Source: a virus. From it: 29,225 nucleotides of DNA. Made by a program: the position numbers and the translations under genes. Below, piece after piece: positions 4,742 through 29,108 of this stretch (its first letter is position 1; each line of letters opens with the position of its first letter). The notes below the pieces were generated by a model, which saw nothing but the letters and a program-made list of their open reading frames with translations, ran no database searches and was not told the DNA's origin. Where the stretch lies: IMG/VR virus record IMGVR_UViG_3300042402_001880, positions 1 through 29,225 of that record, one strand, 5' to 3'.

Positions 4742-4904
4742 CGATCATCAGAAATTAACTCCTGAGCAAGCACAGGCAATTTTATTATTTCAGATTGAGC
4801 AAAAACTAAGGTTTGCTATTGCAAAACAAGTTGAGAATAAATTTCACGGTATGTATCATAATGCATCACACGACATAGCACAATTTATAAGACACAGTGC
4901 TTAA
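4734..4904 (+). CDS. Small helical protein
   Basis: A 56-residue product beginning MDSDHQKLTPEQAQAILLFQ, predicted helical, with six histidines in all, most in the last third. It overlaps the preceding gene and converges with the minus-strand oxygenase, sharing bases 4901-4904 with its stop. No family recognised. Confidence 0.5.
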   Translation: MDSDHQKLTPEQAQAILLFQIEQKLRFAIAKQVENKFHGMYHNASHDIAQFIRHSA

Positions 4905-13116: not shown

Positions 13117-13353
13117 ATGGACAAAGAATTGTCAGCGTGGGAAAAATATAAGGAAAGTCTTGGAGAATCAAGACCTTGGCACTTGCTAGATAAAGAAAAT
13201 TATGTAGAAGATGAAGTAGCAAAAGAAAGATTTTCTATATGCAAAGGATGCCCAGAATTGATTAAATTAACAACACAGTGTAAAAAGTGTGGGTGTTTTA
13301 TGGCAGCAAAGACTAAACTTAAGATGGCTTCATGTCCAATAGGAAAATGGTAA
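13117..13353 (+). CDS. Small zinc-binding phage protein
   Basis: A 78-residue product with CKGC (about residues 42-45), CKKCGCFM (55-62) and a closing ASCPIGKW. The pattern C-x2-C ... C-x2-C-x-C-F-M ... K ... CP.GKW is, as I recall, conserved in small phage proteins found beside 2OG oxygenase genes; I cannot check this here. It overlaps the following oxygenase start as TAATG, so coupled expression is likely. A chaperone or partner role for the oxygenase is possible but unproven. Confidence 0.7.
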   Translation: MDKELSAWEKYKESLGESRPWHLLDKENYVEDEVAKERFSICKGCPELIKLTTQCKKCGCFMAAKTKLKMASCPIGKW

Positions 13354-13949
13354 TGAAAAAAAGACAGTTAGCACCAGGGATAGTCGTATACTCTGACGTT
13401 CTTGAAAATTATGATACTTTAGTTCAAGACATTGAAGAGGGACTTTCTACTTCTGGACAGCAGTGGATGCAATCTTCAATACAAAAAGATGACAAGATAC
13501 AGGTAGACACAAATTACAGAGACACAATGCTTATTAGTGTAAATTATAAAGATTTTATAAATGAAGATTTTATAAATTTACAAGACGCTTTTAATTCAAG
13601 TTTATCAAATATGTTTTTAACTGGTTTTGGTCCTTTAGAATCAGACTACAAACAAGATCATCAACTAGACACTACATCTCACGAAGAATATAGCATATTA
13701 AAATATGGCGAGGGACAAAAGTTTACAAACCATATTGACGATCATAAAGATCATCATAGAAGAATGTCCTGGGTCTACTATATTAATGATGACTATACTG
13801 GAGGAGAGATTTCTTTTCCAAGATTTAATTTAACATATAAACCAGTAGCAAATGAGTTTATAGTATTTCCATCAAACTATATTTACAACCACTCAGTTCT
13901 TCCAGTAATAGAAGGAACGAGATACGCAGTTGTTAGTTGGCTAAAATAA
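13353..13949 (+). CDS. 2OG-Fe(II) oxygenase, prolyl-4-hydroxylase type
   Basis: A 198-residue protein beginning MKKRQLAPGIVVYSDVLENY. Metal ligands H127 and D129 (NHIDDH), distal H180 (YIYNHSVLP), 2-oxoglutarate-binding R190 (EGTRYAVVSW), core YINDDYTGGEISFP at 143-156. The ATG overlaps the TAA of the zinc-protein gene. It lies directly after the Val-Thr-Pro fibre gene, which is the nearest candidate substrate. All residues needed for activity are present. Confidence 0.9.
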   Translation: MKKRQLAPGIVVYSDVLENYDTLVQDIEEGLSTSGQQWMQSSIQKDDKIQVDTNYRDTMLISVNYKDFINEDFINLQDAFNSSLSNMFLTGFGPLESDYKQDHQLDTTSHEEYSILKYGEGQKFTNHIDDHKDHHRRMSWVYYINDDYTGGEISFPRFNLTYKPVANEFIVFPSNYIYNHSVLPVIEGTRYAVVSWLK

Positions 13950-14521
13950 TGATAGACATGGCTTTAGTTGAGCAGGCAAGGTTAGAAAACAGAATCCATA
14001 TATTTAAAAATGTTTTTACAAATTTGCCATCATTAGATACAATTATGTCAATGGTTTCTAAGTATGTTGATGAGGATTTGACTGCTTTCCCAGACAGGTC
14101 ATATCTTTTAAATGATTTTGTTGAAGGCGAATCTTCTGACATGAGATTAAAATGTAGGTTTTGGTCAAGAATGGCTTTTCAACTTTATGATACCAACGAC
14201 CTATACATGTCTATAATCCCAGAGTTGGGTCCAGTAACTGAGTGGGGTCTTTCACATTATCCAGCAGATATTTATACTGGTAATTTTTGCTTAGTATCTT
14301 TAATGAAAAACAGGGGAGTTGTAGGAAGTAAACATAGAGACTATGTTGATCAATTCCAGTGGGTAGTTAAAGGTGAGATGATTTGGCGCACAGGAGAGAA
14401 TTTAGAGAATGAGCATCATCTTGTAGAAGGCGACTTTGTTTTTATCCCTAAAAATCTTGCTCACGAGGTTGAAACACTAGTAGCCCCACGAGTAGCAATT
14501 AATTTAATATTAAGAAACTAA
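13949..14521 (+). CDS. Cupin/JmjC-type 2OG oxygenase candidate
   Basis: A 190-residue protein beginning MIDMALVEQARLENRIHIFK. Unlike its neighbour it has a JmjC/cupin-like arrangement: H129 and D131 (GSKHRDYVDQFQWVVKGEM), then GDFVFIPKNLAHEVE with H172 as third ligand. Such proteins hydroxylate amino-acid side chains in known JmjC and ribosomal oxygenases; the substrate here is unknown. The ATG overlaps the previous stop (TAATG). A metal-binding cupin without oxygenase activity is the alternative. Confidence 0.65.
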   Translation: MIDMALVEQARLENRIHIFKNVFTNLPSLDTIMSMVSKYVDEDLTAFPDRSYLLNDFVEGESSDMRLKCRFWSRMAFQLYDTNDLYMSIIPELGPVTEWGLSHYPADIYTGNFCLVSLMKNRGVVGSKHRDYVDQFQWVVKGEMIWRTGENLENEHHLVEGDFVFIPKNLAHEVETLVAPRVAINLILRN

Positions 14522-14552
14522 AAAGCACCCATAGGTTTTACCCTACAGGTGC
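14519..14552 (-). terminator. Rho-independent terminator for the lysozyme gene
   Basis: GCACC/GGTGC (14525-14529 with 14548-14552) plus an inner TAGG/CCTA stem; on the minus strand it is followed by TTTTT. It lies between the convergent lysozyme and cupin genes and may stop both, but the T-run favours the minus direction. Confidence 0.65.
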
Positions 14553-14568
14553 CTCTAGTTATTATATT

Positions 14569-15132
14569 TTACTTGGGAAATTTACTCATCCAAAATTTGG
14601 TTCTTGGAGTGATGCCCTTCCATGAGGACCAATCATCTCCACCGTTTGTCATGTAGTATGCAATCTCTGCATTCTTGACGGGATTGAATAGTTCAGCGTT
14701 AGAGTCAAGATCAAACTTGGTTCTACGATCAGGACCAAGAGCGTCAATCATATTAATTTGGAACATACCATAAGACGAGTCACCAGTCTTGTGATTGCCG
14801 TTAAAAGCCAATGGTCGCCCATTAGACTCTTTTTTAGCCACTGCCCAAGCAACTACAAGGTCTTTACCCTTGAAGCCTACTAGTGAAAGCAGTTCCTTTA
14901 GTTCTAAATCAGTCAGAGAAACCTTGTTCTCAAAACTCTCTAACTTTTTAGCCTTAGAAACCAAAAAAACCTCTTTCGAGGCGGTTTCCAATGTCTGAGC
15001 CTGTTCTATGCTCAAGTTGTTTTTAGTATCAAGACCTGAATCAGCATTGGCTCCGTTCGACAAAACAGTTACTAATGCTACGATACTGAGTGTGCTAATG
15101 ATCTCTTTGTTTCTTTCGATAAATTTAATCAT
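14569..15132 (-). CDS. Secreted lysozyme / lytic transglycosylase
   Basis: A 187-residue protein. Residues 1-30 form a Sec-type signal (basic MIKFIERNK, hydrophobic core, ANA before D31). The catalytic domain has E102 (AKKESNGRP), GDSSYGMFQIN (117-127) and a WSSWKG motif near the end, typical of the lysozyme-like SLT fold that cleaves peptidoglycan glycan strands. I start at 15132, which has AAGGAGG at proper spacing; an upstream in-frame ATG lacks one. Being exported on its own, it may act in lysis without a holin, or locally on the wall. It has its own promoter and terminator. Confidence 0.8.
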   Translation of the reverse strand: MIKFIERNKEIISTLSIVALVTVLSNGANADSGLDTKNNLSIEQAQTLETASKEVFLVSKAKKLESFENKVSLTDLELKELLSLVGFKGKDLVVAWAVAKKESNGRPLAFNGNHKTGDSSYGMFQINMIDALGPDRRTKFDLDSNAELFNPVKNAEIAYYMTNGGDDWSSWKGITPRTKFWMSKFPK

Positions 15133-15153
15133 AGTTTCCTCCTTAGAAAACAA

Positions 15154-15178
15154 TAACACCCTGGTAGGTGTTACTACC
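15154..15178 (-). promoter_or_regulatory. Alternative hairpins in the lysozyme leader
   Basis: TAACACC (15154-15160) pairs with GGTGTTA (15167-15173); alternatively GGTAG (15163-15167) pairs with CTACC (15174-15178). The two overlap and exclude each other. They lie between the promoter and the ribosome site, so they could tune expression of the lysozyme. Confidence 0.35.
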
Positions 15179-15179
15179 T

Positions 15180-15209
15180 AGTATAACATGTTTTTGGGCC
15201 AAAAGTCAA
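15180..15209 (-). promoter_or_regulatory. Lysozyme promoter
   Basis: On the minus strand TTGACT (15209..15204), 18 bases, TATACT (15185..15180) with TGT before the hexamer. The TTGACTTTTGG start resembles the promoter at 1812-1840. It lies back to back with the plus promoter at 15219. Confidence 0.6.
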
Positions 15210-15218
15210 ATTTGGGTG

Positions 15219-15224
15219 TATAAT
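15219..15224 (+). promoter_or_regulatory. -10 box for fibre genes
   Basis: TATAAT after GGGTG, nine bases before the ATG at 15234; no ribosome site, so translation would be nearly leaderless. Confidence 0.5.
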
Positions 15225-15233
15225 TATTTTATT

Positions 15234-15758
15234 ATGACTACATATGACTTTTCTGCCACGGGAGTTAAATATCCCCTTGAAAACTCCCCCGTAAATGTAC
15301 ACGGAGACTTTAAAAAATTAGCAGAATCATTAGATGCAATTCTACCAGCATATGGTGTATCATATTTTCAGATTAATGTGCATAATAACAGTGGAGCAGC
15401 AATATCTAACGGAGTCCCAGTTTATGCAACAACTGGAAAAGTAAATGGCAAGGTTACAATTGCAAAAGCACTTCCATCAACAACTGCACCAATATTAGGA
15501 TTACTAAAAAACAATACATTAAACGGTTCTGATGGAATAGTGGTTGTTGCTGGAGTTATGGAAGGTTTAAATACTTCAGGCTTTGCTGCAGGACAAACAC
15601 TTTATGTTGGCCAATCTGGAGGTTTGACAAATGTTAGACCAACAGGAGGATCAGCAGCAGTTGGAATTTGCGCTATTGCAGATAGTGTTAATGGAATTGT
15701 AATAGTAGAGGCAAAAGGAAACGGTACCTGGGGAGCACTCAGAGACGGTTTGTCGTGA
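15234..15758 (+). CDS. Virion beta-domain protein
   Basis: A 174-residue product beginning MTTYDFSATGVKYPLENSPV. Residues 45-165 follow a pattern common in phage fibre and capsid-decoration proteins: NNSGAAISNGVPVYATTG, then APILGLL, then GIVVVAGVMEGLNTSGFAAG, TLYVG and VGICAI. Probably a beta-barrel head or collar domain of a fibre. Its TGA forms the TG of the next extended -10 box. Confidence 0.65.
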   Translation: MTTYDFSATGVKYPLENSPVNVHGDFKKLAESLDAILPAYGVSYFQINVHNNSGAAISNGVPVYATTGKVNGKVTIAKALPSTTAPILGLLKNNTLNGSDGIVVVAGVMEGLNTSGFAAGQTLYVGQSGGLTNVRPTGGSAAVGICAIADSVNGIVIVEAKGNGTWGALRDGLS

Positions 15759-15764
15759 TATAAT
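15757..15764 (+). promoter_or_regulatory. Extended -10 promoter, leaderless
   Basis: TGA-TATAAT (hexamer 15759-15764) with six bases before the ATG at 15771; overlaps the upstream stop. Confidence 0.6.
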
Positions 15765-15770
15765 AAACCT

Positions 15771-16217
15771 ATGGCCACATACAGAAACCCCAATGAAACC
15801 CCTATTACTGGAGTAGTTGCACCAGCAACATATAATATTGGGAACAAGCCACCGCTTATTAACTGGACTGTTGTAATTGGAGATACCGCATCTTTTAGAA
15901 TTTATGTAGAAGATGATTTGGGAAATCCCTTAGATTATAATACAACCACCTTTGACCCAAATGATGCTGGTTGGAATATTACAGGAGACTTTAGAAGATA
16001 TTCAGATAACGATGGAGACGATTTACTGTTTACTGTTTTGCCAGATAAAACAGACAATGATGACGATGGAGAATTTACAGTAACTTTGTCTGCAGCCCAA
16101 TCAAAACAACTTTTAACTGGAGACGTTTTTGATATTCAACTAAAAGACGGTGATCGTGTTTGGACAGTCTGCCAAGGCGAGATGATTATGCTTGGTGAAA
16201 TCACAGATCAGGCGTAA
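15771..16217 (+). CDS. Baseplate/fibre beta-domain protein, BppU-N-like
   Basis: A 148-residue product: WTVVIGDTASFRIYVEDD (about residues 31-48), then a long loop of Asp and Asn, then FTVTLSAAQSKQLLTGDVFD and a closing GEMIMLGEIT. The plan matches the proteins at 7973 and 9199. Asp-rich runs (DNDGDD, DKTDNDDDG) might bind calcium. Probably part of the tail-tip assembly platform. Confidence 0.6.
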   Translation: MATYRNPNETPITGVVAPATYNIGNKPPLINWTVVIGDTASFRIYVEDDLGNPLDYNTTTFDPNDAGWNITGDFRRYSDNDGDDLLFTVLPDKTDNDDDGEFTVTLSAAQSKQLLTGDVFDIQLKDGDRVWTVCQGEMIMLGEITDQA

Positions 16218-16223
16218 CCAAAA

Positions 16224-16484
16224 ATGGCAACAACCGTAATTTCCCAGGGCATTGCTTTAGCAGTATTAGTTTCAGCAGCAACAATCTCTCCAGGAATACA
16301 GATAGAAGATCTTAGTCCAGTATCTAGCGGTGTAGTATCTGTTGGGTATCCTAAGATAGTTACTCCAGCAGACATACTCCCTTTTAGGTTGACAATAACT
16401 AATATAGGAATTGAAGGATACGGTCAAAGCAATCCACCAGGAATTGGTGTTCAGGTTATTGGGTTTTCCAACTACATTCTCTAA
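16224..16484 (+). CDS. Small hydrophobic protein in fibre cluster
   Basis: An 86-residue product beginning MATTVISQGIALAVLVSAAT. It is rich in Val, Ile, Ser and Gly, and beta by pattern, with a hydrophobic N-terminus. It begins six bases after the previous stop with no ribosome site. Possibly a minor virion protein; not recognised. Confidence 0.5.
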   Translation: MATTVISQGIALAVLVSAATISPGIQIEDLSPVSSGVVSVGYPKIVTPADILPFRLTITNIGIEGYGQSNPPGIGVQVIGFSNYIL

Positions 16485-16502
16485 TAAGACTATTAAAAGG
16501 TA

Positions 16503-16511
16503 TGTTATAAT
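16503..16511 (+). promoter_or_regulatory. Extended -10 promoter, leaderless
   Basis: TG-T-TATAAT (hexamer 16506-16511), six bases before the ATG at 16518. Confidence 0.6.
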
Positions 16512-16517
16512 TACCAC

Positions 16518-16964
16518 ATGGCCAAACTCACAATTCCAAATGTTAAGTTAAAATTCCAAACTGGTGATCGTCCTTCACAAGAAGATTACGTAGATTTGAT
16601 CGACACCCTTTCATCCCAAGCAACAGATTTAGGATCAAAGGGTAATAATGAAAATGAAATCAATGGTGTTGAAAACGTAACTGTTATTGATGATTTTCAG
16701 GCTACAGAGTGGCGCATGGTCAAGTATATTATTTCAATATCAAAGACCTCTGCAGGGGACAACAAGTTCTATGCAACCGAATTAACAATTCTTGCTGACG
16801 GTACAGATGTATCAGTTAGTGAGTATGGCACTATCGACAATGATGGGAATATTGGCACCATTAATGTCTCTCGCACTGGAAATACCGTGGCTATTACAGT
16901 CACTCCAGATCCTGCGATCAAGCCAGTCACCGTACGTTACGCACGTATGGGACTTAAGGCATAA
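16518..16964 (+). CDS. Short fibre protein
   Basis: A 148-residue product: an N-terminal segment (MAKLTIPNVKLKFQTGDRPS), a helical linker and a C-terminal beta domain (about 55-148: WRMVKYIISISK ... TVSEYGTI-type turn ... GNTVAITVTPD). This domain corresponds to the last 90 residues of the long fibre at 16983 (YLVKVAYG ... ITEYGIVG ... GSNVQLQVT), so the two share a head module. Confidence 0.65.
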   Translation: MAKLTIPNVKLKFQTGDRPSQEDYVDLIDTLSSQATDLGSKGNNENEINGVENVTVIDDFQATEWRMVKYIISISKTSAGDNKFYATELTILADGTDVSVSEYGTIDNDGNIGTINVSRTGNTVAITVTPDPAIKPVTVRYARMGLKA

Positions 16965-16982
16965 TAAAAGGAGATATAAAAA

Positions 16983-18506: not shown

Positions 18507-18541
18507 TAAAAAATAAAAATAGTTGGAAGAAGGAGTAGTAA

Positions 18542-18997
18542 ATGACAACAGTCGACAAAGACTTCAGAGTCAAGAATGGGTTAGTCGTTGCAAACGGCGG
18601 TACATTCGGAGATGCAGTAACAGTAGGGGAACCAACCCTTGCCTCACATGCAGCAACTAAGGAGTATGTTGATTCTTTGTCAGGATCTATGCAAGTAGGA
18701 ACAACTCCTCCTTCTTCACCAACTAATGGAACACAGTGGCTAGACACTCTAACAAATAGAGTTAATTTTTATTACAGTGGTAACTGGTATACCCAGGCAA
18801 CTATTGACGATACAAATAATCTTCCACAGCACATTCACGATACCGCAATTGATGGAACTGGTTTTATAGTATCCCAGTTCTATGAAGGTGGATCATTCAA
18901 TAGCCCATTGGGTGTAGGTTTGGATGCTGGAGGCCCAAGTTCAACAACTTGGACTGTAGTATTCGATGGCGGTAGTGTAGTAGATAACTTCAACTAA
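18542..18997 (+). CDS. Short fibre protein
   Basis: A 151-residue product beginning MTTVDKDFRVKNGLVVANGG, an N-terminus shared with the long fibre at 16983, followed by ASHAATKEYVDSL, a GTTPPSSPTNGTQWLDT segment and a beta-rich end. The segment TPPSSPTNGTQWLDT...FYYSGNWY is a common small beta motif in phage fibres. GAAGGAG precedes the ATG. Probably assembles on the same attachment point as the long fibre. Confidence 0.7.
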   Translation: MTTVDKDFRVKNGLVVANGGTFGDAVTVGEPTLASHAATKEYVDSLSGSMQVGTTPPSSPTNGTQWLDTLTNRVNFYYSGNWYTQATIDDTNNLPQHIHDTAIDGTGFIVSQFYEGGSFNSPLGVGLDAGGPSSTTWTVVFDGGSVVDNFN

Positions 18998-19007
18998 AAA
19001 CAGGGGT

Positions 19008-19046
19008 TATAATAAGATAAGTAAATGGGCAGCCCCCATTAAGGAG
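19008..19046 (+). promoter_or_regulatory. -10 box, leader hairpin and ribosome site
   Basis: TATAAT (19008-19013), then AATGGG (19024-19029) pairing with CCCATT (19035-19040) directly before AAGGAG (19041-19046). The hairpin would sit at the 5' end of the fibre mRNA and could stabilise it. Confidence 0.45.
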
Positions 19047-19056
19047 AAATAAAAAT

Positions 19057-20574
19057 ATGGCAACAAGAATGCAACAGCGCAGAGGAACTGCAGCGCAATG
19101 GACGGCTGCGAACCCAATTCTAGCAGCAGGTGAGATCGGATTTGAAACCGACACAAGTAAGTTTAAGATGGGTAACGGCTCTTCAGCCTGGTCTGCCCTG
19201 ACATATTTTGCTAATGCAGCAGAACTAGCAGCCATTGTTGATGCTGCTCCAGAGACCCTAAATACCCTTAATGAATTAGCAGCAGCACTAAATGATGATC
19301 CAAATTTCTTTGCAAATATTGCAGACAGTATTGCAGACAATATTGATTTGCACAATGTTACAACAGGAGTTCACGGAATTGCTAACACAGCACTACTTGC
19401 AACTCTAACAAATGTTTCTACTGCACAAACAGCAGCAGAAGGTTTTGCAACAACAGCAATTACAACTCATAATACTGACACAACGGACGTTCATGGTATT
19501 GCTGACACAGCAGCACTTGCAACAACCGCAAATGTAACAACGGCTATTGGCAATGCAGTGACAGGACACTCTTCAGATACCACAGAAGTTCACGGAATAT
19601 CAAATACAGCAAACTTAGTGTATGCTACAGATCTTTCAACCCATGCTTCAGATACTACCTCAATTCACGGTATTGAAAACACAGCAGACCTTGCTACAAA
19701 GACTTATGCAGACACAGCAGTGTCAACACATGCTGCTCTTACACTAGAGGTTCACGGTATTGCAAATACAGCACTTCTAGCAACACAAGATTATGTTGAT
19801 ACAGCAATTGGAACAGCAGCAGTAGATCAGTCAGCACTTGCTGGTGTAGGTCTTGACTGGAACGGAACAACATCCCAATACGATATTGACTCAACAGTAG
19901 CAACAACAACATACGTAGGAACTGAGATTGGTACACACAACTCAGATACTACATCTGTTCATGGTATTGCAGATACATCGCTTCTAGCACTCAAGTCAGA
20001 AGTTAACGCAATAACAAAAACTTCACTAGGACTTGAAAATGTTGATAATACAGCAGATGCATCAAAGCCAGTATCTACAGCACAGGCTTCAGCAATCGCC
20101 ACAGCCAAGTCAGAAGCAATTTCAGATGCTACATCACAGGTAAACGCTCTTCTAGCAGGTGCCCCAGCAGCACTTAATACACTTGATGAACTTGCTGCAG
20201 CACTTGGAGATGACGCAAACTTTGCTTCATCAGTAACAACTAGCCTTGGATTAAAGGTAGATTCTTTAACCCCAATTTCACAAAAGACAGCATCATACAC
20301 ACTTTCATCACTAACTGAAAGAGACGACCTAATTGAAATGGGTTCAGCCTCAGCACTAACTCTTACAATTCCACCAGCATCAGCAGTTGACTATCCAATT
20401 GGAACTTCAATTGATATTCTTCAAACTGGAGCAGGACAGGTTACAATTGCAGCAGGTGCAGGAGTAACAGTTAATGCAACACCTGGCTTGAAACTTCGTA
20501 CAACTTGGTCATCTTGTACTCTCTTTAAGAGAGCAGCAAATACTTGGGTTGTCTACGGCGACTTGACAGCGTAA
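19057..20574 (+). CDS. Long tail fibre with VHGIADT repeats
   Basis: A 505-residue protein. Residues 6-51 (QQRRGTAAQWTAANPILAAG ... GNGSSAWSAL) match the N-terminal domain seen in phage tropism determinants and many fibres. The shaft has six repeats of DTTxVHGIADTAxLAT. A VDQSALAGVGLDWNGTTSQY segment and the C-terminal beta domain (about 405-505) are shared with the Val-Thr-Pro fibre at 10672. AAGGAG precedes the ATG. Likely receptor-binding. Confidence 0.75.
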   Translation: MATRMQQRRGTAAQWTAANPILAAGEIGFETDTSKFKMGNGSSAWSALTYFANAAELAAIVDAAPETLNTLNELAAALNDDPNFFANIADSIADNIDLHNVTTGVHGIANTALLATLTNVSTAQTAAEGFATTAITTHNTDTTDVHGIADTAALATTANVTTAIGNAVTGHSSDTTEVHGISNTANLVYATDLSTHASDTTSIHGIENTADLATKTYADTAVSTHAALTLEVHGIANTALLATQDYVDTAIGTAAVDQSALAGVGLDWNGTTSQYDIDSTVATTTYVGTEIGTHNSDTTSVHGIADTSLLALKSEVNAITKTSLGLENVDNTADASKPVSTAQASAIATAKSEAISDATSQVNALLAGAPAALNTLDELAAALGDDANFASSVTTSLGLKVDSLTPISQKTASYTLSSLTERDDLIEMGSASALTLTIPPASAVDYPIGTSIDILQTGAGQVTIAAGAGVTVNATPGLKLRTTWSSCTLFKRAANTWVVYGDLTA

Positions 20575-20606
20575 TACAAAATTCAATAAGAAATTAGGAG
20601 ATACAA

Positions 20607-21596
20607 ATGGCAGCAGGTAAAAAGATAGGTAAGAAGTCCCAAGCGTCAAATGACTTTTTGGAGCCATTAGCACCAACAGGTGTTACTGGAACAAACATTG
20701 GAACAGATCGTCCATTTAATAATGGAGCAGTCTCTGTAGCGTTTTCTTTACCTGCACTTTCACCTGCTGCTACCTCTTTTACAGTAACAGCAAGCACAGG
20801 ACAAACAGCGACTGGAGCATCTTCTCCTATTACTGTAACTGGAATTGCTTCTTCAGCAACCCCAACATTTACAGTAACAGCAACTAATGCTGCAGGAACT
20901 TCAGCAGCGTCTTCTGCCTCTGCTGCAGTGACTGTAACAACAGTACCAGCAACACCATCTGCCCCAACAGCAACAGCAGGAGTAGATGCTGACTCAGTAA
21001 CTTGGACAGCCCCAGCAAATGGAGGAAGTGCAATTACTTCTTATGTTTGGGCAGCATCAGATGGAAAGACTAACTCAACAGCAGCAACATCTGTATCAGT
21101 TGGCCAAGAAGCAAATACAGCACAGACTTATACCGTCAGAGCAATAAATGCTAACGGAACATCTGCAACATCTCCTGCTTCTACTAGCGTAACTACTATT
21201 GCTCCGTTCTTCCCGTTCTTCCCATTCTTCCCGCCATTTTTCCCACCATTCTTCCCACCGTTCTTCCCATTCTTCCCACCATTCTTCCCGTTTTTCCCAC
21301 CATTCTTCCCGTTCTTCCCACCATTCTTCCCACCTTACTTCCCATTCTTCCCACCTTACTTCCCATTCTTCCCACCTTACTTCCCTTACTTCCCATTCTT
21401 CCCACCTTACTTCCCATTCTTCCCACCTTACTTCCCTTACTTCCCATTCTTCCCACCTTACTTCCCATTCTTCCCACCATTCTTCCCGTTCTTCCCATAT
21501 TTCCCACCAGCACCACCAACAGGAGGATGTACTAATTGCTACAAGGCATGCTGGTCTTGCAGTTGCCCATCATGTTGTGGTTCTTGTGCCTACTAA
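20607..21596 (+). CDS. FN3 adhesin with Pro-Phe-Phe repeat and cysteine-rich tail
   Basis: A 329-residue protein. Two FN3-like domains (about 22-110 and 117-197) are followed by 105 residues (200-304) made only of Pro, Phe and Tyr, except for a single Ala near the end, in units such as PFFP, PFFPP and PYFP. The last 25 residues hold eight cysteines and end in CPSCCGSCAY, like the end of the fibre at 10672 ([11 protein letters not shown]). I know no family with such a tract. It may be an aromatic, extended stalk or a surface-sticking segment. The tract is the most extreme candidate proline-hydroxylase substrate here; that is inference. Confidence 0.75.
   Translation: MAAGKKIGKKSQASNDFLEPLAPTGVTGTNIGTDRPFNNGAVSVAFSLPALSPAATSFTVTASTGQTATGASSPITVTGIASSATPTFTVTATNAAGTSAASSASAAVTVTTVPATPSAPTATAGVDADSVTWTAPANGGSAITSYVWAASDGKTNSTAATSVSVGQEANTAQTYTVRAINANGTSATSPASTSVTTIAPFFPFFPFFPPFFPPFFPPFFPFFPPFFPFFPPFFPFFPPFFPPYFPFFPPYFPFFPPYFPYFPFFPPYFPFFPPYFPYFPFFPPYFPFFPPFFPFFPYFPPAPPTGGCTNCYKACWSCSCPSCCGSCAY
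21204..21518 (+). repeat. Pro-Phe/Tyr-Phe coding repeat
   Basis: Pyrimidine-rich repeats of 9, 12, 15 and 21 bases (CCATTCTTC, CCACCTTACTTC) spanning 315 bases. Codons vary only at silent positions and at Phe/Tyr. Long open frames on the other strand and in another plus frame here are by-products of the repeat. Confidence 0.85.
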
Positions 21597-21602
21597 TTAC
21601 TA

Positions 21603-21611
21603 TGCTATACT
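21603..21611 (+). promoter_or_regulatory. Extended -10 promoter
   Basis: TGC-TATACT (hexamer 21606-21611), followed by an AAAGGAG ribosome site at 21617-21623 before the ATG at 21631. Confidence 0.45.
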
Positions 21612-21630
21612 ATAATAAAGGAGAAAAACT

Positions 21631-22083
21631 ATGTATGTTGTATTAACAAAAAATAGCAATAACACTTGGGATGCTATTTCCGATATAACTCTTGACGAGG
21701 GTACAATTTCTAAAAATGTACTAGAAGATGCTTTTGCGAGCAATCTTCCAATTATCGGAATGGACATAACCAACTATGGACCAACAGTATTTAAAAATTC
21801 TGTATTCGATGGCGATTCTTTTTCTGGGGGAATAACTCCACCACTATCATCACCAGAAATGCCAGAAGATTTTTTTACAGTAAATAAAAGATATGCATTT
21901 TTGTGTGACAACAAAGCCGTACTTTTTATTACAGTCCCAATTGGTAGTCCAAACTCTGACATGTTTGCAGCAGCCTTTGCTGGAGAAACAATACTCATTA
22001 AGACTGAAACTGGACCAAGGGTAAAAGTTGGAAAAACTTTTAATTGGGACGGTACTGAACTAACACTTGTTGTACCAGAATAA
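21631..22083 (+). CDS. Unknown beta-rich protein ending the fibre cluster
   Basis: A 150-residue product beginning MYVVLTKNSNNTWDAISDIT. The sequence alternates short strands and Gly/Pro turns (GGITPPLSSPEMPEDFF, VLFITVPIGSPNSDMF). AAAGGAG lies before the ATG and a clear terminator follows. Probably virion-associated by location; family not recognised. Confidence 0.6.
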   Translation: MYVVLTKNSNNTWDAISDITLDEGTISKNVLEDAFASNLPIIGMDITNYGPTVFKNSVFDGDSFSGGITPPLSSPEMPEDFFTVNKRYAFLCDNKAVLFITVPIGSPNSDMFAAAFAGETILIKTETGPRVKVGKTFNWDGTELTLVVPE

Positions 22084-22103
22084 ACAATATTTATATTAAC
22101 AAG

Positions 22104-22133
22104 ATATATAGACTTTAGGGTCTATATATTTTT
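22104..22133 (+). terminator. Rho-independent terminator
   Basis: ATATATAGAC (22104-22113) pairs perfectly with GTCTATATAT (22120-22129), loop TTTAGG, and the T-run continues to 22133. It separates the fibre cluster from the oxygenase operon. Confidence 0.75.
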
Positions 22134-22145
22134 GTTTTATCATAG

Positions 22146-22154
22146 TGGTATAAT
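22146..22154 (+). promoter_or_regulatory. Extended -10 promoter of the oxygenase operon
   Basis: TGG-TATAAT (hexamer 22149-22154), predicted start near 22161, with AAAAGGAAA before the ATG at 22181. It directly follows the terminator. Confidence 0.6.
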
Positions 22155-22180
22155 AGTTGTACTAGAGAAAAGGAAAGTCT

Positions 22181-22891
22181 ATGGAAATATATGACGAAAA
22201 TTCAAATCATTGGTTTACAAAAGATAGATCAGAGACTGCATCAAACAGGGTTCCTGCAAGAAAATTAGACAACACTGTAAGTGTTGAAAACCTAGGTTTA
22301 GGGTTACATGTATACCATGATACATTTTCTTTAGATGACGCAAACAGATACATCAATACGCTTGAGTCAAACCTTTCAAGAGGTGGCAAATATAAGTGGT
22401 CAGAAGCACAAGTAACGAACTCTACAACACCGATTAAAAAGGCTAGAGATGCTGTAGACTTTAAATACAAGCAAGAAAACTTGGGGCCAAGAGATAAAAC
22501 AAACTCTGAACTTATAGATTTGCATGAAGAGATTTATCAAAAACTTAAGTACTGCATAGATGACTATGCAAAGTATTGGGGAATAAACGTTGTATATTAT
22601 GAAGCCTTTAATTTTGTAAAGTATGAGGGTGCTGGAACTCATTTTAATATTCACGCTGATCATGGCCCTGCTTATAACTGTACTGTTTCTGCTGTTATTT
22701 ATATAAATGACGACTATGAAGGTGGGGACTTAAAGTTTCCAAGACTTGACAACTTAGTCTATAAACCAAGAGTTGGAGACATAGCAGTCTTTCCATCAAA
22801 CTATATTTATGAACATGCATCACTTCCTATGGAGTCTGGTACAAAATACTGTGTTGTCATTATGACAGACATCAATGAACTGAGTCACTAA
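22181..22891 (+). CDS. 2OG-Fe(II) oxygenase, prolyl-4-hydroxylase type
   Basis: A 236-residue protein with a longer N-terminal helical part. Metal ligands H158 and D160 (NIHADHGPAYNCTVS), distal H212 (YIYEHASLP), K222 (SGTKYCVV) for 2-oxoglutarate, core YINDDYEGGDLKFP (174-187). It is closely related to the enzyme at 23681, which shares EAFNF, DHG.xYNCTVS and SGTKY. The stop overlaps the next ATG (TAATG). First gene of the operon. Confidence 0.9.
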   Translation: MEIYDENSNHWFTKDRSETASNRVPARKLDNTVSVENLGLGLHVYHDTFSLDDANRYINTLESNLSRGGKYKWSEAQVTNSTTPIKKARDAVDFKYKQENLGPRDKTNSELIDLHEEIYQKLKYCIDDYAKYWGINVVYYEAFNFVKYEGAGTHFNIHADHGPAYNCTVSAVIYINDDYEGGDLKFPRLDNLVYKPRVGDIAVFPSNYIYEHASLPMESGTKYCVVIMTDINELSH

Positions 22892-23670
22892 TGAATAGTG
22901 AAAAGTCTAAATTAGCAATATTTAGATCATTCAGGCCCTGGATAAACAAAGATAGCAAACACGTTCCAGTACCAACACAAAAAGAAATGCCAGATTGGTA
23001 TAAAGATGCAGACAGATTTGCTAAAATGCCAAACGGAGAATACTATAAAGCACCAAAAGAAGTTTGTCCATTTCCCAAAGAAGGAACAACAGACGACTAT
23101 GGAAAGATACCTACATGGAAGGCGTGTCCTGCAATTATGGATGCGTTTGCAACTGGTTATGTATTTAAAACGCCGTGTGATCTAAAATTTGCCAAAAATT
23201 CTCAGGGAATAATTAATGTAACAATAGATGACCCTAAGTATAAAGACTTTTGTACTCAAAGACCACCAATGCCACAGTTTGAGCATCCTAAAGGATACTA
23301 TCAGTACCACTTTGCTTGGAGTTCTCCCTGGGGTCTAGAGTTGCCAGAAGGATATAGTGCATTGTTTATGACACCAATGAACAGGTTTGACCTTCCCTTT
23401 ATGAACACAACTGGAGTCGTAGATTCTGACAAGGTTCACCTTCTTGGAAGTTTCCCATTTTTTATTACAGAAGGCTGGGAAGGAACGCTTCCTGCTGGAA
23501 CACCTTATATTCAGGTACTTCCGTTTAAAAGAGAAAATTGGGAGCATGAAATAGAGATTTTAGATCAGTCTTCTATATATGGTAAAATGGTAGATAACGC
23601 AAATTTTTATCGTCAGCCTGATGGCGGGGTATATAAAAATAAAGTTTGGTCAAGAAGAGAATATAGATAA
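22891..23670 (+). CDS. Oxygenase-cluster companion protein
   Basis: A 259-residue product beginning MNSEKSKLAIFRSFRPWINK. The C-terminal half has YHFAWSSPWGLELPEGYSAL, MNRFDLPF, SFPFFITEGWEG and LPAGTPYIQVLPFKRENWEH. I recall similar proteins beside phage oxygenases but cannot name a verified family. The motif AGTPxxxxxPF also occurs in the protein at 24337 (AGTPVATIIP), so the two may be distant relatives. The Trp- and Pro-rich core suggests a beta fold. A role in substrate delivery or a second modification step is speculation. Confidence 0.6.
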   Translation: MNSEKSKLAIFRSFRPWINKDSKHVPVPTQKEMPDWYKDADRFAKMPNGEYYKAPKEVCPFPKEGTTDDYGKIPTWKACPAIMDAFATGYVFKTPCDLKFAKNSQGIINVTIDDPKYKDFCTQRPPMPQFEHPKGYYQYHFAWSSPWGLELPEGYSALFMTPMNRFDLPFMNTTGVVDSDKVHLLGSFPFFITEGWEGTLPAGTPYIQVLPFKRENWEHEIEILDQSSIYGKMVDNANFYRQPDGGVYKNKVWSRREYR

Positions 23671-23680
23671 GGGATATATT

Positions 23681-24337
23681 ATGCAAACATGGACAGATAG
23701 ACAAGACCTTGGCAATGGAATCTTTTGCTACAAGGGCGTAATCAAAAAAGAAATTGATGTTATTAATAGACTAGAGTCTAACTTAAAGCCTGTGGGAGAT
23801 ACTACAGGATATGCTTGGCTACCAGCATATGTTGGATACAAGCAACTAATGCCAGACTATAGAGATTGCAATGATTTTAAGTTTAAGAAAACAGACATCG
23901 AATATGATAAAAGTCCAACAAGCCTTAAACTTCAGGAACTTTGGCAAGATGTCTATGATGCACAGGCTCCTGCAGTTGAAGATTATTGCAAGATCCACAA
24001 CATTCATGAACTAAAGTACTGGGAAGCGTTTAACTTTATTAAGTATGGACCAGGCCAGCACTTCCAAGAGCACCACGACCATGGCTTCTCCTACAACTGC
24101 ACAGTGTCTCTTGTTGCTTATGTAAATGATGATTACGATGGTGGAGAACTAAACTTTAGACTTCAGAATTTGACTGTTAAGCCAGAGGCTGGAGATCTCT
24201 TTATATTCCCTTCAACCTTTATGTATCCTCATCGTGCAATGCCAGTACACTCAGGTACAAAATATTCTATTGTTACAATGCTTGACTACAATAAGAAGTT
24301 TCACACTCCAGAAATGTATGTTGCGGACAAAGACTAG
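23681..24337 (+). CDS. 2OG-Fe(II) oxygenase, prolyl-4-hydroxylase type
   Basis: A 218-residue protein beginning MQTWTDRQDLGNGIFCYKGV. Metal ligands H131 and D133 (QEHHDHGFSYNCTVS), distal H184 (MYPHRAMP), K194 (SGTKYSIV), core YVNDDYDGGELNF (147-159). The upstream extension of the frame lies inside the preceding gene; AGGG is a weak ribosome site for the ATG at 23681. Nearest relative in the window is the enzyme at 22181. The stop overlaps the next GTG (TAGTG). Confidence 0.9.
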   Translation: MQTWTDRQDLGNGIFCYKGVIKKEIDVINRLESNLKPVGDTTGYAWLPAYVGYKQLMPDYRDCNDFKFKKTDIEYDKSPTSLKLQELWQDVYDAQAPAVEDYCKIHNIHELKYWEAFNFIKYGPGQHFQEHHDHGFSYNCTVSLVAYVNDDYDGGELNFRLQNLTVKPEAGDLFIFPSTFMYPHRAMPVHSGTKYSIVTMLDYNKKFHTPEMYVADKD

Positions 24338-25053
24338 TGTTTAATATTTCAGTTGAAAAAACTCCAGGATGTCTTTTTGAGATATCTCCAATGTCTATTA
24401 AAAGAGACTGGATGGATGACACTTCTGAAAACCACGCTTATAGATGTTTCCCAGTAACTCAGGCAAACGTTGTTGGATATAGTCTATCTTGCACAGAAGA
24501 TATTGAGTTTGAGTGGGATGGAATAAATGATCAAACACCTGACCACGTTAAAATCTTAAGTCCAGAAAGAGCATATTCTGGGAGAGGACAATCATCTATT
24601 AGCATGGATACGGGTTTAATATTTAGAACAGATCAGGACGTTAGTATAATTGCTATTAATCCAGTCAACTATTTTAGTGATGAGTTTGAGACAATGTCTT
24701 CACTAATTAGTACATCTTTCTATGACAACCCTTTCCCTTTAGCACTTAAGGCAAAGACAGCAAATAAAAGAATAGTCATTAAAGCAGGAACTCCAGTTGC
24801 AACAATTATTCCAATATCTTTGACACAACTAAACAACACAGTTATAAAAATGGTTGACTATAAAGATGAGGACAGAAAAAGGGTAGAAGCAAACATCTCA
24901 TATGGTGAAGCAGCCCAAGTTGTAAACTCTACTGGAGAATGGACTGACTGGTATAGAAATGCTGTTAACGAAAAGCAAGAGTCTCTAGGGTCTCACGAAG
25001 TAAAGACTTTAAAACTTAGTGTAGAAGATCAAACAACTCAGGGCAGACCATGA
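24337..25053 (+). CDS. Oxygenase-cluster companion protein, DUF6065-like
   Basis: A 238-residue product starting at a GTG that overlaps the previous TAG. RDWMDDTSENHAYRCFPVTQ, VVGYSLSCTEDIEFEWDG, GLIFRTDQDVSIIAINPVNY and IKAGTPVATIIPI resemble my memory of the DUF6065 family, of unknown function, in bacteria and phages. The assignment is from memory and unverified. Predicted beta-rich; no catalytic motif seen. Overlaps the next gene as ATGA. Confidence 0.55.
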   Translation: MFNISVEKTPGCLFEISPMSIKRDWMDDTSENHAYRCFPVTQANVVGYSLSCTEDIEFEWDGINDQTPDHVKILSPERAYSGRGQSSISMDTGLIFRTDQDVSIIAINPVNYFSDEFETMSSLISTSFYDNPFPLALKAKTANKRIVIKAGTPVATIIPISLTQLNNTVIKMVDYKDEDRKRVEANISYGEAAQVVNSTGEWTDWYRNAVNEKQESLGSHEVKTLKLSVEDQTTQGRP

Positions 25054-25505
25054 ATGAATTAAATCCAACACACTCTGATATAGTTAATGACTACATCAAA
25101 AGTTCTAAAGAAGGCAAGGTTGGTCATTATATGATAACTGTTTCAAGAGATGGAGAGTCTCCTGTAAGATCTATCATATCTTTTGATAATCTAGAGCAGG
25201 CCTTAGAAGGTTATGAAATGTATCAAGATGCTGGGTTTGCAAAAAACTACCTAACAGTCTCTATGTATGAGCCATCTGGACAAATAAACACAAAGGTTTT
25301 AAAAAGAAACCACGCAGGAGATCCATCATTTGTAAGGCAAAACTATATTGATACAGTAGAAGCATTGCATTATTTGAAGGATAAGTTAGACAAAAAAGAC
25401 TATGAAGATGTCTGTATTAAGATTGTTACTTCTTTTGCAAAAGATAATTGGAGATTCAACGCAGAAAGATTCTTAAAACAACTAGAGATAGAGAGGACAT
25501 TGTAG
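25050..25505 (+). CDS. Unknown protein of the oxygenase cluster
   Basis: A 151-residue product beginning MNELNPTHSDIVNDYIKSSK. Mixed alpha/beta sequence with a helical C-terminal half (YIDTVEALHYLKDKLDKKDY). Starts on ATGA overlap with the previous gene. No family recognised. An inverted repeat TAGGG/CCCTA (25503-25517) covers its stop. Confidence 0.55.
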   Translation: MNELNPTHSDIVNDYIKSSKEGKVGHYMITVSRDGESPVRSIISFDNLEQALEGYEMYQDAGFAKNYLTVSMYEPSGQINTKVLKRNHAGDPSFVRQNYIDTVEALHYLKDKLDKKDYEDVCIKIVTSFAKDNWRFNAERFLKQLEIERTL

Positions 25506-25517
25506 GGCAAAACCCTA

Positions 25518-25526
25518 TGATATAAT
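25518..25526 (+). promoter_or_regulatory. Extended -10 promoter, leaderless
   Basis: TGA-TATAAT (hexamer 25521-25526), six bases before the ATG at 25533. It follows a small hairpin (25503-25517), giving the second half of the oxygenase operon its own start. Confidence 0.6.
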
Positions 25527-25532
25527 TCAATT

Positions 25533-26207
25533 ATGGACAAAATGGATGCTTCTGTTGTAATTAGAAAACCGTCACTAACGCCATCTGGCTGGTTTGGTAA
25601 TGGTAAAGAGATGATTGTTGAGTTAGAAAATTTTATGACTCAAGAAGAAATAGAGTTTTTAGAGAAGGCTGCAAAGTCTTTGACAATCTGGGATGTAACT
25701 CAAAGCCACGTTAACGAAAACGGAACAGTCGTATATGACTCTGAGTACTGGAAAGATCGAGTAGCCACTAGCCCAACTTTAGATAAAAATGATCCAACAA
25801 TCGCTCCAGTAATTGCAGGCCTGTTTCAAAGGCTTAAGCCAATCGTTGAAGAGTTCTATAAGGTAAAGGTTACCCCTACTGGTACAACTATCGTTAGATG
25901 GCTTCCAGGCCAGTTTCAGAACCCTCACGCAGACAAGGAACTGCACGAAGGCCCAGATGCTGGACTTCCAAATGATTTTCCAAACTATGATCTTTCAAGC
26001 CTATTTTATTTAAATGAGGACTATGAAGGTGGAGAGTTATACTTCCCACTACAGGGTGTACAGTTTAAACCTAAAAAGGGAGCAGCGTATTTTTTCCCAG
26101 GGGATATGAATTATGTTCACGGAGTAACAGAGATTAAGAGTGGTATTAGATACACATGTCCATTCTTCTGGGAGATAACAGAGCACACAGGAGACAGAAA
26201 GCCATGA
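25533..26207 (+). CDS. 2OG-Fe(II) oxygenase, prolyl-4-hydroxylase type
   Basis: A 224-residue protein beginning MDKMDASVVIRKPSLTPSGW. Metal ligands H132 and D134 (NPHADKE), distal H196 (NYVHGVTE), R206 (SGIRYTCPFFW), core YLNEDYEGGELYFP (159-172). Translation appears leaderless; a second ATG lies three codons in. It overlaps the next gene as ATGA. It has a longer insert after HxD than the 22181 type (residues 135-152). Confidence 0.9.
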   Translation: MDKMDASVVIRKPSLTPSGWFGNGKEMIVELENFMTQEEIEFLEKAAKSLTIWDVTQSHVNENGTVVYDSEYWKDRVATSPTLDKNDPTIAPVIAGLFQRLKPIVEEFYKVKVTPTGTTIVRWLPGQFQNPHADKELHEGPDAGLPNDFPNYDLSSLFYLNEDYEGGELYFPLQGVQFKPKKGAAYFFPGDMNYVHGVTEIKSGIRYTCPFFWEITEHTGDRKP

Positions 26208-27064
26208 CAGAAAAACTCTTAGAGCATATTGAACTTTATCCAAAGATATTTGTATACAAGAATCTTTTTAAGGATATCAATAAGACACTTGAGATATTAA
26301 AAGACGAAAGCGAAGATGCTATTTTTAGTCCTTGGACCCAGTGGTCACACTTTGGGGAGTATCTGAATCCACTGTTTAAAAACTACCCACACACAATGAG
26401 CATTGAAGATATGAGAAAGATAGAAACAAGAACAGAAAAAGAAGAAGCACAAAAACTTGCAATACTAGAAGTATTTGAAAACTTTCATTTAGCAACCCAG
26501 GACTATATCCTTAAAAACAATGTCGATTTTGATAAAGACAAAGTATTGGTAAACCGTGAAGGAGAGTCCTTTAATCTTTGGACAACAAATGGACCAGCAA
26601 TCGCAAGATATAAAACGGATATAGAGGATTCTTTGGCAATGGCATACCACTCTGACTTTATCAGAGAACCAATTGTAAGTCCAGGATATAAGTTTGGAAT
26701 TACTGCACTCACATACTTTAATGACGACTACGAAGGCGGAGAAATTGATTTTATTGTTGATGGAGAAGCCTATATGTATAAGCCAGAAGCAGGAGATTAT
26801 TTAATTTTTCCATCTGGACATCCAGAAATACTCACAAAAGAAGGTCAGGTCTACCTACATGGTGTGATGCCAGCAAGGGGAGAAAAGAAATATATCTCCA
26901 GAATGTATTGGATGAAGTATGAGGTTGGCGATGACAAATGGTTTGAAAAAGAGGCTGAGTTTGGAAAGGATGTTTGGAAAGAAATGCAACCAGACATTAT
27001 GCAAAAATTTAGAGATGCTCATCCTAATAAAATGAATGCTGATAAAGAAAAGAGAATAAAATGA
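26204..27064 (+). CDS. 2OG-Fe(II) oxygenase, prolyl-4-hydroxylase type, long form
   Basis: A 286-residue protein, the longest of the set. Metal ligands H149 and D151 (YHSDFIREP), distal H219 (VYLHGVMP), basic K228/K229 or R233 (EKKYISRMYWM), core YFNDDYEGGEIDF (171-183). It has a long helical N-terminal region and a charged C-terminal tail of about 45 residues. The ATG overlaps the previous TGA, with AGGAG about 11 bases upstream; an in-frame extension upstream is inside the previous gene. Confidence 0.88.
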   Translation: MTEKLLEHIELYPKIFVYKNLFKDINKTLEILKDESEDAIFSPWTQWSHFGEYLNPLFKNYPHTMSIEDMRKIETRTEKEEAQKLAILEVFENFHLATQDYILKNNVDFDKDKVLVNREGESFNLWTTNGPAIARYKTDIEDSLAMAYHSDFIREPIVSPGYKFGITALTYFNDDYEGGEIDFIVDGEAYMYKPEAGDYLIFPSGHPEILTKEGQVYLHGVMPARGEKKYISRMYWMKYEVGDDKWFEKEAEFGKDVWKEMQPDIMQKFRDAHPNKMNADKEKRIK

Positions 27065-27807
27065 ACCTAGAAAATAAAAAGAGAATTACAAAAGACATCG
27101 TTATTTATGAAAACTTTATTGATGAAGAGACTTGTCAAAAAATGATACAGGCGTTAGATGCTCAGGCAGATAACGGAAAAATCTCTTGGATGCCCATATC
27201 ATTCTATGAGTCATATTCTTCTGTTCTTCCACAAGACAACGACCAAGAACTACTTGATGCTGGACTATCTTCAACTATTTTTTCCGACATTGAAAAGGCA
27301 ATGCCAGAAGCAATCGCTTCAGTCCACGACCTTGACCCAAAGATAATTTCTAAAATTGGATACCACACACAAAAGTGGGAACCAGGAGCATATGCAAGAA
27401 TACACTCAGACAATACAGATGCTGAGGGAAATTCTGGAGCATTCACAAGAAGCCGTTATGCTGGGTTCTTATACCTTAATGATAATTTTGAAGGCGGACT
27501 ACTAAAGTTCCCAGGACAAGACATTAGTATTCAACCAAAAGTTGGAATGCTTGCTGTTTTTGACGGAGGATTTAATAATATGCACGAGGTAACTTTAATA
27601 GAAAGTGGAGTAAGATATACCATTGGATCTTTTTGGGATGACAGAGAAGAGTCTGCTTACCCTCAAGAACTAAGAGATGCCTGGGCAGAAGAAATGAAAG
27701 CAACAAGAGCCCAGCAAGAAATTGAAAGAGCAGAGTGGCAAGAACTCCTTAAAGAAGGATACAAAATAGATACTGATGGAAACAAATACAAAGTGGAGGA
27801 AAAGTAA
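27061..27807 (+). CDS. 2OG-Fe(II) oxygenase, prolyl-4-hydroxylase type
   Basis: A 248-residue protein beginning MNLENKKRITKDIVIYENFI. Metal ligands H115 and D117 (ARIHSDNTD), distal H175 (NNMHEVTLI), R185 (SGVRYTIGSFW), core YLNDNFEGGLLKFP (138-151). A charged, coiled-coil-like C-terminal tail (about 195-248) is unusual in the set and could mediate assembly. Start overlaps the previous stop as ATGA. Confidence 0.9.
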   Translation: MNLENKKRITKDIVIYENFIDEETCQKMIQALDAQADNGKISWMPISFYESYSSVLPQDNDQELLDAGLSSTIFSDIEKAMPEAIASVHDLDPKIISKIGYHTQKWEPGAYARIHSDNTDAEGNSGAFTRSRYAGFLYLNDNFEGGLLKFPGQDISIQPKVGMLAVFDGGFNNMHEVTLIESGVRYTIGSFWDDREESAYPQELRDAWAEEMKATRAQQEIERAEWQELLKEGYKIDTDGNKYKVEEK

Positions 27808-28470
27808 ATGGACATTTTTTTAAAAAAAGAGTTTGAGGATGCAGGATATAATACAGAAGTTTTTCACGATGGCGTTTTGTTTATCAAAGATTTTTTAAAA
27901 GAAAAAGAACTTGATACTATCTTAGAGATAATCAAAACAACTCCAGAAGAAGATTGGTCTATAGAATATACAAAAAACCTTGCCAGGTTCTGTATGGAAA
28001 AATTTGGCAGAGACGATGTCGATAATCTTGTTGCTGAGGGTAAATTTGAAATAACTCAAAACTGGCAAGATAAAAATTTAGATATTACAAAAGAAGAGAT
28101 TAGCAAAACCCTTCAGGTGAGGCTTGGGAATTTAATAAAACTATCAGATCCTAGCCTAGAACTCGCTGGCTTTGGAACTCTGCAAAGAATGCAAGAAGGA
28201 GTAGAACTAAAGGCTCATACAGATCAGCATACAGACCCATCAATTAAATATGCTGCTATACTATATATCAACGATGACTATAAGGATGGGACTCTATTCT
28301 TTAAGAATAAAGAAAATTCAGACTTAAGACCAGCACCAGGAACATTGCTTCTTTTCCCAGGAAACGAAGAATATGAACATGGAGTTCGTTTTGTAGGAGA
28401 AGGACCTATTCGTTATGTTACGGTAGGGTTTATAAAAATTACAGGTTTTTACGAACATAATAAATTCTAA
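27808..28470 (+). CDS. 2OG-Fe(II) oxygenase, prolyl-4-hydroxylase type
   Basis: A 220-residue protein beginning MDIFLKKEFEDAGYNTEVFH. Metal ligands H137 and D139 (KAHTDQHTD), distal H191 (YEHGVRFV), R202 (GPIRYVTVGF), core YINDDYKDGTLFF (153-165). This core departs from the EGG signature of its neighbours (KDG) and the strand that follows is polar rather than FP, suggesting a different substrate. GGAGGAAA precedes the ATG, which follows the previous stop directly. Confidence 0.88.
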   Translation: MDIFLKKEFEDAGYNTEVFHDGVLFIKDFLKEKELDTILEIIKTTPEEDWSIEYTKNLARFCMEKFGRDDVDNLVAEGKFEITQNWQDKNLDITKEEISKTLQVRLGNLIKLSDPSLELAGFGTLQRMQEGVELKAHTDQHTDPSIKYAAILYINDDYKDGTLFFKNKENSDLRPAPGTLLLFPGNEEYEHGVRFVGEGPIRYVTVGFIKITGFYEHNKF

Positions 28471-28481
28471 GGAGATATAAA

Positions 28482-29108
28482 ATGGACAGAGAAATACTTG
28501 AAGAAAAGGTTTACTATTACACAAACGTAATTGAGGATCCAAAGAAACTTGTTGAGGCAATTGAAAATGACAACAAGGATGAATGGGGAGAGTGGATGGC
28601 GTGTAGCGGACAGCACTATGTCTACGGAACAGACAAGAGTATCTCACAAGCAGATCCCTCAGATGAAAAAAATACATATATTTATTCAACACTCCAAAAG
28701 GCTTTTGACGATGTAGCAAGAGACTACGCAGCAGCCCACGGTATCACAGAAGAACCTAAACTGTTTCCAATGTATCCAATTAAGAAGTACATGGCTGGAA
28801 CATTTATGGGGGCACACTTTGATCAGCAAGAGGGAGATGAAAGACTTAAGGTTTCTTTCGTAATGTACCTCAATGATGATTATGAGGGTGGAGAGATTTC
28901 TTTTACAATTAGAGATCCAAAGGGCCCAATTCAAGGTCCAACTCCAGATTCAGATTTTGCAAATGCAGATCCTTCAGCATATCATTTTGCAGTTAAGCCA
29001 AAGGCTGGAAGTATTATTGTATTTCCTCCATCACCACCATATCACCACACAGCACACCTAGTTAAGAGTGGTTATAAGTATATGGTACCGCAACACTGGA
29101 TTCACTAA
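28482..29108 (+). CDS. 2OG-Fe(II) oxygenase, prolyl-4-hydroxylase type
   Basis: A 208-residue protein beginning MDREILEEKVYYYTNVIEDP. Metal ligands H112 and D114 (GAHFDQQ), distal H189 by spacing (PYHHTAHLV), K199 (SGYKYMVPQHW), core YLNDDYEGGEISF (129-141). A Pro/Asp-rich insert (145-167, DPKGPIQGPTPDSDF) sits in the loop over the active site, where substrate selectivity is usually set. AAGGAG precedes the ATG. Confidence 0.9.
   Translation: MDREILEEKVYYYTNVIEDPKKLVEAIENDNKDEWGEWMACSGQHYVYGTDKSISQADPSDEKNTYIYSTLQKAFDDVARDYAAAHGITEEPKLFPMYPIKKYMAGTFMGAHFDQQEGDERLKVSFVMYLNDDYEGGEISFTIRDPKGPIQGPTPDSDFANADPSAYHFAVKPKAGSIIVFPPSPPYHHTAHLVKSGYKYMVPQHWIH

Follow-up and report, generated by a model that had tools for sequence, protein, structure and literature searches.

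The present study analyzes an entire IMG/VR virus record of 29,225 bases (IMGVR_UViG_3300042402_001880, here called the window), probably a genome fragment, in which the gene for a fibre protein with a Pro-Phe/Tyr-Phe/Tyr repeat tail is followed directly by a cassette of seven predicted oxygenases and two DUF6065-type genes (22181-29108). The cassette is syntenic in over 100 viral loci, its oxygenases share one family and intact catalytic residues and bear the signature of purifying selection, and its presence and size co-vary with the type of tail on the neighbouring fibre protein. On this basis we consider it reasonably probable that the cassette modifies the Pro-Phe/Tyr tail by hydroxylation, probably on proline, a proposal in which catalysis, site and location in the virion are all inferred.

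The fibre tail and its oxygenase cassette

The proposed substrate (20607-21596, plus strand, as are all cassette genes) has an FN3/PKD-like N-terminus, a tail of ~100 residues holding 29 Pro-Phe/Tyr-Phe/Tyr motifs and a Cys-rich C-terminus, and gave a weak match to a phage tail protein (phrog_3995, 4e-4). Downstream, the common gene order is ox3 (22181-22891); D6065a (22891-23670; phrog_7084), a constant partner with a weak beta-clip fold prediction; ox4 (23681-24337); D6065b (24337-25053; PF19541, 7e-27); a small conserved gene of unknown function, lacking in some relatives (25050-25505); ox5, the most conserved member (25533-26207); ox6, optional in relatives (26204-27064); ox7 (27061-27807); ox8 (27808-28470); and ox9 (28482-29108), after which longer contigs continue with a class II ribonucleotide reductase. 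Relatives of the cassette were collected using the 22891 protein as query and synteny was traced over 80 loci, with the Pro-Phe-Phe protein present wherever its slot was covered.

A search with the N-terminal, non-repetitive part of the 20607 protein gave homologues that occupy the same slot with differing C-terminal tails; as read from these homologues, the C-terminal tail of this fibronectin-III fibre protein is exchangeable. A first comparison covered 62 loci having 7 kb of downstream sequence, where at least four oxygenases were present in 49/49 loci with at least eight Pro-aromatic-aromatic motifs and fewer than four in 13/13 loci with fewer than eight, i.e. with other or short tails (Fisher 1.2e-13, uncorrected for ancestry). 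An enlarged comparison took in 87 loci whose sequence ran through to a downstream landmark: Pro/Phe tails (n=55) were accompanied by 1-9 oxygenases, mostly 6 or 7, FGVFGF tails (n=23) by 0 or 1, FTPYSF tails (n=3) by 0, 0 and 1, YNFYN tails (n=2, on a single contig) by 0, and unclassified tails (n=4) by 0-2. The Pro/Phe loci with one or two oxygenases had short tails of PPYF/PYF type with six or seven motifs, yet L178 has seven motifs and five oxygenases; the incomplete locus L229 combines a related PPLFFGPPGFFAPP tail with six. The pattern extended to whole genomes, with 1-6 oxygenases in eleven large contigs without a Pro/Phe tail versus 6-10 in fourteen with one (p = 3e-5), and DUF6065 scoring over its cut-off in 15/15 with the tail versus 0/11 without. 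When the search was reversed and begun from a single distant DUF6065 homologue, every locus that extended to the tail slot had a Pro/Phe tail, the one in L333 being frameshifted. Codons for FFPPFFPFFP occurred in seven contigs among 84,980 bacterial and archaeal genomes, and the only true repeat tail of this kind there lay, together with the cassette, on a contig of phage origin binned with Chitinophagaceae. Related phages keeping the oxygenases without a proline-rich protein, the condition set for refuting a virion hydroxylation system, were sought, and the outcome did not refute it: distant cassettes always stood beside a Pro/Phe tail and, conversely, the cassette was lacking next to homologous fibre proteins whose tails were of other types.

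All nine oxygenases of the window (ox1 to ox9) passed the gathering score of PF13640 in a Pfam profile search (29.5-60.9 bits, cut-off 27), H132, D134 and H186 being invariant across their alignment and Arg or Lys occupying the 2-oxoglutarate (2OG) position in each. Of the 1269 aligned homologues from relatives, 1265 retain all four catalytic residues, and ratios of nonsynonymous to synonymous substitution of 0.01-0.22 for the seven cassette oxygenases indicate that these are under purifying selection. A structural model made for ox4 (predicted local distance difference test, pLDDT, 83) has the double-stranded beta-helix fold, and Foldseek matched it to prolyl 4-hydroxylases at 1e-8 to 1e-9. 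The best match was vCPH of PBCV-1 (PDB 5c5t, 4e-9), other top matches being an algal prolyl 4-hydroxylase with a (Ser-Pro)5 peptide, PHD2 and the P. putida enzyme bound to EF-Tu, with mimivirus lysyl hydroxylase also among the best; an ox4 profile run against the PDB matched a Bacillus prolyl hydroxylase and the same mimivirus enzyme. The nine open reading frames are accordingly classed as 2OG-Fe(II) oxygenases of the prolyl 4-hydroxylase type, with peptidyl-proline hydroxylation as the predicted activity. An original prediction made from the DNA letters alone had named these nine proteins for their HxD motif, distal His and basic 2OG residue, and both profile and alignment agree with it.

Gene content within the cassette also varies with the repeat itself. 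While ox4 was present in 80/80 Pro/Phe loci examined, ox3 is missing, among Pro/Phe tails, solely from those with hardly any or no single prolines flanked by aromatics. Within a single clade, loci whose tails read PPYFPPYF (L171, L179, L234, L235, L296) have ox4 alone and those reading PYFPYFPYF (L155, L236) have ox3 and ox4, and ox3 is missing too from L162, a separate lineage whose tail is almost purely PP. This pattern suggests that the enzymes read proline context.

Linked inheritance and other explanations

Under the hydroxylation proposal, 20607-29108 would be an appendage tail with its dedicated modification set, the seven oxygenases and two DUF6065-type partners acting on the repeat before or during virion assembly. 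The most likely chemistry would be hydroxylation of the repeat prolines, each proline context being handled by its own enzymes, and the benefit may be an aromatic tail kept soluble, stiff or adhesive.

Several points weigh against this proposal. Since the tail gene adjoins the cassette, a single recombination event can transfer the two together. In trees built from flanking genes the cassette mostly switches along with the tail and almost never against it, but the upstream tree gave 8 tail switches that are weakly supported and the downstream tree 5, of which 3 are forced by supported branches; these were quick trees with several weak nodes, and the independent co-switch pairs are too few for significance. 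The link between ox3 and proline context draws on two lineages, and L229 retains an ox3-like gene (39% identity) though its differing repeat is without isolated prolines. The six records bearing PF11397 glycosyltransferases, discussed below, were taken irrespective of tail type. Among 50,697 phage records the 20607 tail protein had no match and ox5 found distant similarity only, and no virion proteomics was found. Finally, modification of a tail explains neither the ribonucleotide reductase near the cassette nor the dUTPase/dCTP-deaminase-like beta-clip fold modelled, weakly, for DUF6065.

The main rival explanation is linked inheritance of two adjacent loci, in which the oxygenases act on something other than the tail (the host surface, metabolites or the 2OG/nitrogen state proposed for cyanophages) and travel with it merely as neighbours. 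The adjacency and the small number of well-supported independent switches are both consistent with it, as is the metabolic role given to phage 2OG oxygenases (PMC3037559). Against hitchhiking stand a cassette size that tracks tail type and repeat register, the far smaller number of oxygenases genome-wide where tails differ, and the different gene families that fill this slot when the tail is of another type, and we regard it as unlikely. Alternatively, the same tail could be modified on phenylalanine, tyrosine or cysteine instead of proline. The aromatics are the other constant of the repeat, and F-to-Y exchanges and Cys variants occur, but the fold and profile neighbours of ox4 act on proline or lysine and ox3 presence tracks proline spacing, so that this choice of residue appears more doubtful still.

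A collagen-like fibre (8460-9191, plus strand; Pfam 1.3e-7) could be the main substrate, as in giant viruses, and the presence of this gene would fit, as would the placing of vCPH and the mimivirus lysyl hydroxylase near the top of the ox4 fold matches, but such genes are found with and without the Pro-Phe-Phe tail alike (9/15 genomes with it versus 8/11 without), and collagen was rejected as cassette substrate on this distribution as highly improbable. DNA hypermodification of TET/JBP type, with DUF6065 as a nucleotide enzyme, was likewise rejected as scarcely credible: the dUTPase-like fold, the nearby ribonucleotide reductase and Tet_JBP (PF12851) scores for two proteins speak for it, but these scores (21.4 and 19.8 bits) are far under the cut-off of 34.9, the fold neighbours are protein hydroxylases with no nucleic-acid dioxygenase among the best 50 listed ox4 matches, and cassette presence depends on fibre tail type. 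Concerning DUF6065 itself, the 24337 gene scored 94.8 bits (cut-off 26.6) whereas the 22891 protein is tied to the family only via phrog_7084, and no sequence match to DUF6065 was found in the PDB. A distant 22891 homologue lies close to the ribonucleotide reductase gene of Halorubrum tailed phage 8 (HRTV-8; L181, genes 36-38).

Other repeat proteins, fibre tips and the virus group

A second repeat slot is occupied by a Val-Thr-Pro fibre protein with a PASTA domain (10672-13083, plus strand), followed on the same strand by a DUF6171 Cys-rich protein (13117-13353), ox2 (13353-13949) and a cupin-like protein with an HRD...H motif (13949-14521, start 13937/13949). Relatives have further genes in this slot: PF11397 glycosyltransferases (as a DUF6171 fusion in L099 and near ox2 elsewhere), a fusion of the cupin with a family-61 glycosyltransferase in one relative, HtrL_YibB, NAD-dependent epimerases and a radical SAM protein. 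At L014 the Pro-Phe-Phe gene and the cassette are separated by a PF11397 gene. PF11397 we take to be the family of the Skp1 hydroxyproline GlcNAc-transferase. The genes at 13117-14521 may be a smaller second module serving the Val-Thr-Pro fibre; since relatives add glycosyltransferases and sugar-nucleotide enzymes there, hydroxylation may in this slot prepare O-glycosylation. A 193-residue family in this slot of relatives matched only "ferrochelatase" PHROGs, with no meaningful PDB match, and was set aside. Both the Val-Thr-Pro and the Pro-Phe-Phe proteins finish in a Cys-rich stretch closing with CAY.

These neighbourhoods bear on the remainder of the original prediction. Its three repeat proteins, collagen-like, Val-Thr-Pro and Pro-Phe-Phe, are real, and its expectation that different oxygenases serve different repeats fits the placement of ox2 in the Val-Thr-Pro slot and of the seven-gene cassette beside the Pro-Phe-Phe tail, just as its suggestion of glycosylation sites fits the glycosyltransferases in relatives. 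Its broader idea that the set modifies the phage's own appendages gained support for the cassette and the Pro-Phe-Phe tail but not for the collagen-like fibre, the cupin or the 4901 gene. The cupin had been counted as a tenth 2OG enzyme of cupin/JmjC type; it has the HRD motif and a distal His, but it matched no 2OG family, scored 25.7 bits against Cupin_2 (cut-off 27.2), and found a quercetinase as best PDB match at an E-value of 0.43. The 4901 gene (ox1, 4901-5596) lies on the minus strand, outside the 13353-29108 interval to which the system had been assigned, beside a methylase-like gene, and is not clearly part of the fibre systems. This neighbour (5698-6633) matches N6_N4_Mtase in the motif I region but has HFPF in place of the usual catalytic (S/D/N)PP(Y/F) motif, and is possibly inactive as a DNA methylase. 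The gene immediately before that of the Pro-Phe-Phe protein encodes a tail-fibre protein with an Mtd N-terminal domain (19057-20574, plus strand).

More generally, the phages may carry fibre tips that can be exchanged, every kind of low-complexity tail having modification genes of its own and switching together with them as an adhesion module, a tentative view to which we give slightly less than an even chance. Pro-Phe-Phe tails would be paired with the hydroxylase cassette and its several context-specific enzymes, FGVFGF tails for the most part with an unknown "HKFFER" family, and the few FTPYSF tails with DUF6065-like genes, one or two adding a sulfotransferase and an aspartyl-hydroxylase-like gene. 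Most FGVFGF-type tails are followed by one to three members of a ~220-residue family with the motif HKFFERFLDNDL (e.g. L154:10765-11439, L177:2909-3556, L164:8032-10027); this family has no Pfam match, and one member matches phrog_2696, of unknown function. Sulfotransferase-like and aspartyl/asparaginyl-beta-hydroxylase-like genes adjoin some tails (L132:11707-12507, L166:12634-13248, L317-L321, L327, L328, L331). Several fibre tails carry a Hint/intein-like C-terminal domain at sub-threshold Pfam scores (L046:3068-4390, L058:7870-9192, L172:1632-2816), which suggests self-processing of the fibre tip.

No near match to the window DNA was found in the phage collection. A 115-kb relative (G001/L072) has a capsid protein 44-45% identical to those of Streptomyces phages such as LukeCage and further encodes a prohead protease, DNA polymerase III alpha, a class II ribonucleotide reductase and an open reading frame of 4,089 residues that, judged by length, is probably the tape measure. 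WhiB, an actinobacterial marker, was present in 12/12 large contigs tested. The simplest reading is that the group comprises uncultured phages of freshwater actinobacteria, with the host taken from a marker gene and a freshwater habitat inferred. A contig binned as a Chitinophagaceae genome (L310, JAFMJX010000128.1) is a phage contig of the group with tail and cassette, and the 115-kb relative encodes a tryptophan halogenase (L093:11832-13385, 7e-102).

Known systems and significance

Phage 2OG oxygenases are usually classed as metabolic helpers. For those of cyanophages a metabolic role has been proposed (PMC3037559); these (PHROG 61) belong to the same superfamily and occur several per genome, but no fibre-linked cassette is described there. 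Hydroxyproline has been reported in viral proteins of PBCV-1 (Eriksson 1999, as cited in PMC9301287), and vCPH, the best ox4 fold match, is a virus-encoded prolyl hydroxylase; it is, however, an algal-virus enzyme, whereas here seven diverged paralogues occur in a bacteriophage and are tied to a non-collagen repeat. Mimivirus L230, a lysyl hydroxylase/glycosyltransferase, hydroxylates and glycosylates the virus's own collagen-like proteins, with hydroxylysine found in virions (PMC9614988). Modification by a virus of its own proteins is what we propose here from genes, but L230 targets lysine in Gly-X-Y and the present repeats are Pro/aromatic. In the Skp1 system prolyl hydroxylation is followed by addition of a sugar to hydroxyproline by Gnt1 (PMC11570480), which recalls the PF11397 glycosyltransferases near phage fibres; Skp1 is nonetheless a cytosolic signalling protein, and glycosylation in the phages is suggested by gene neighbours in relatives, not in the window.

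A 2022 survey states that viral use of prolyl 4-hydroxylase "remains cryptic" (PMC9301287), and no report of hydroxylated phage virion proteins was found in the open-access literature. In the window a short, defined candidate substrate adjoins its candidate enzymes, and fibre homologues that have a different tail and lack the cassette serve as natural controls; phage virion hydroxylation is therefore directly testable. If the proposal is true, these phages would offer a collection of peptide hydroxylases with apparent context specificity, and the chemistry of phage appendages would gain a new layer.

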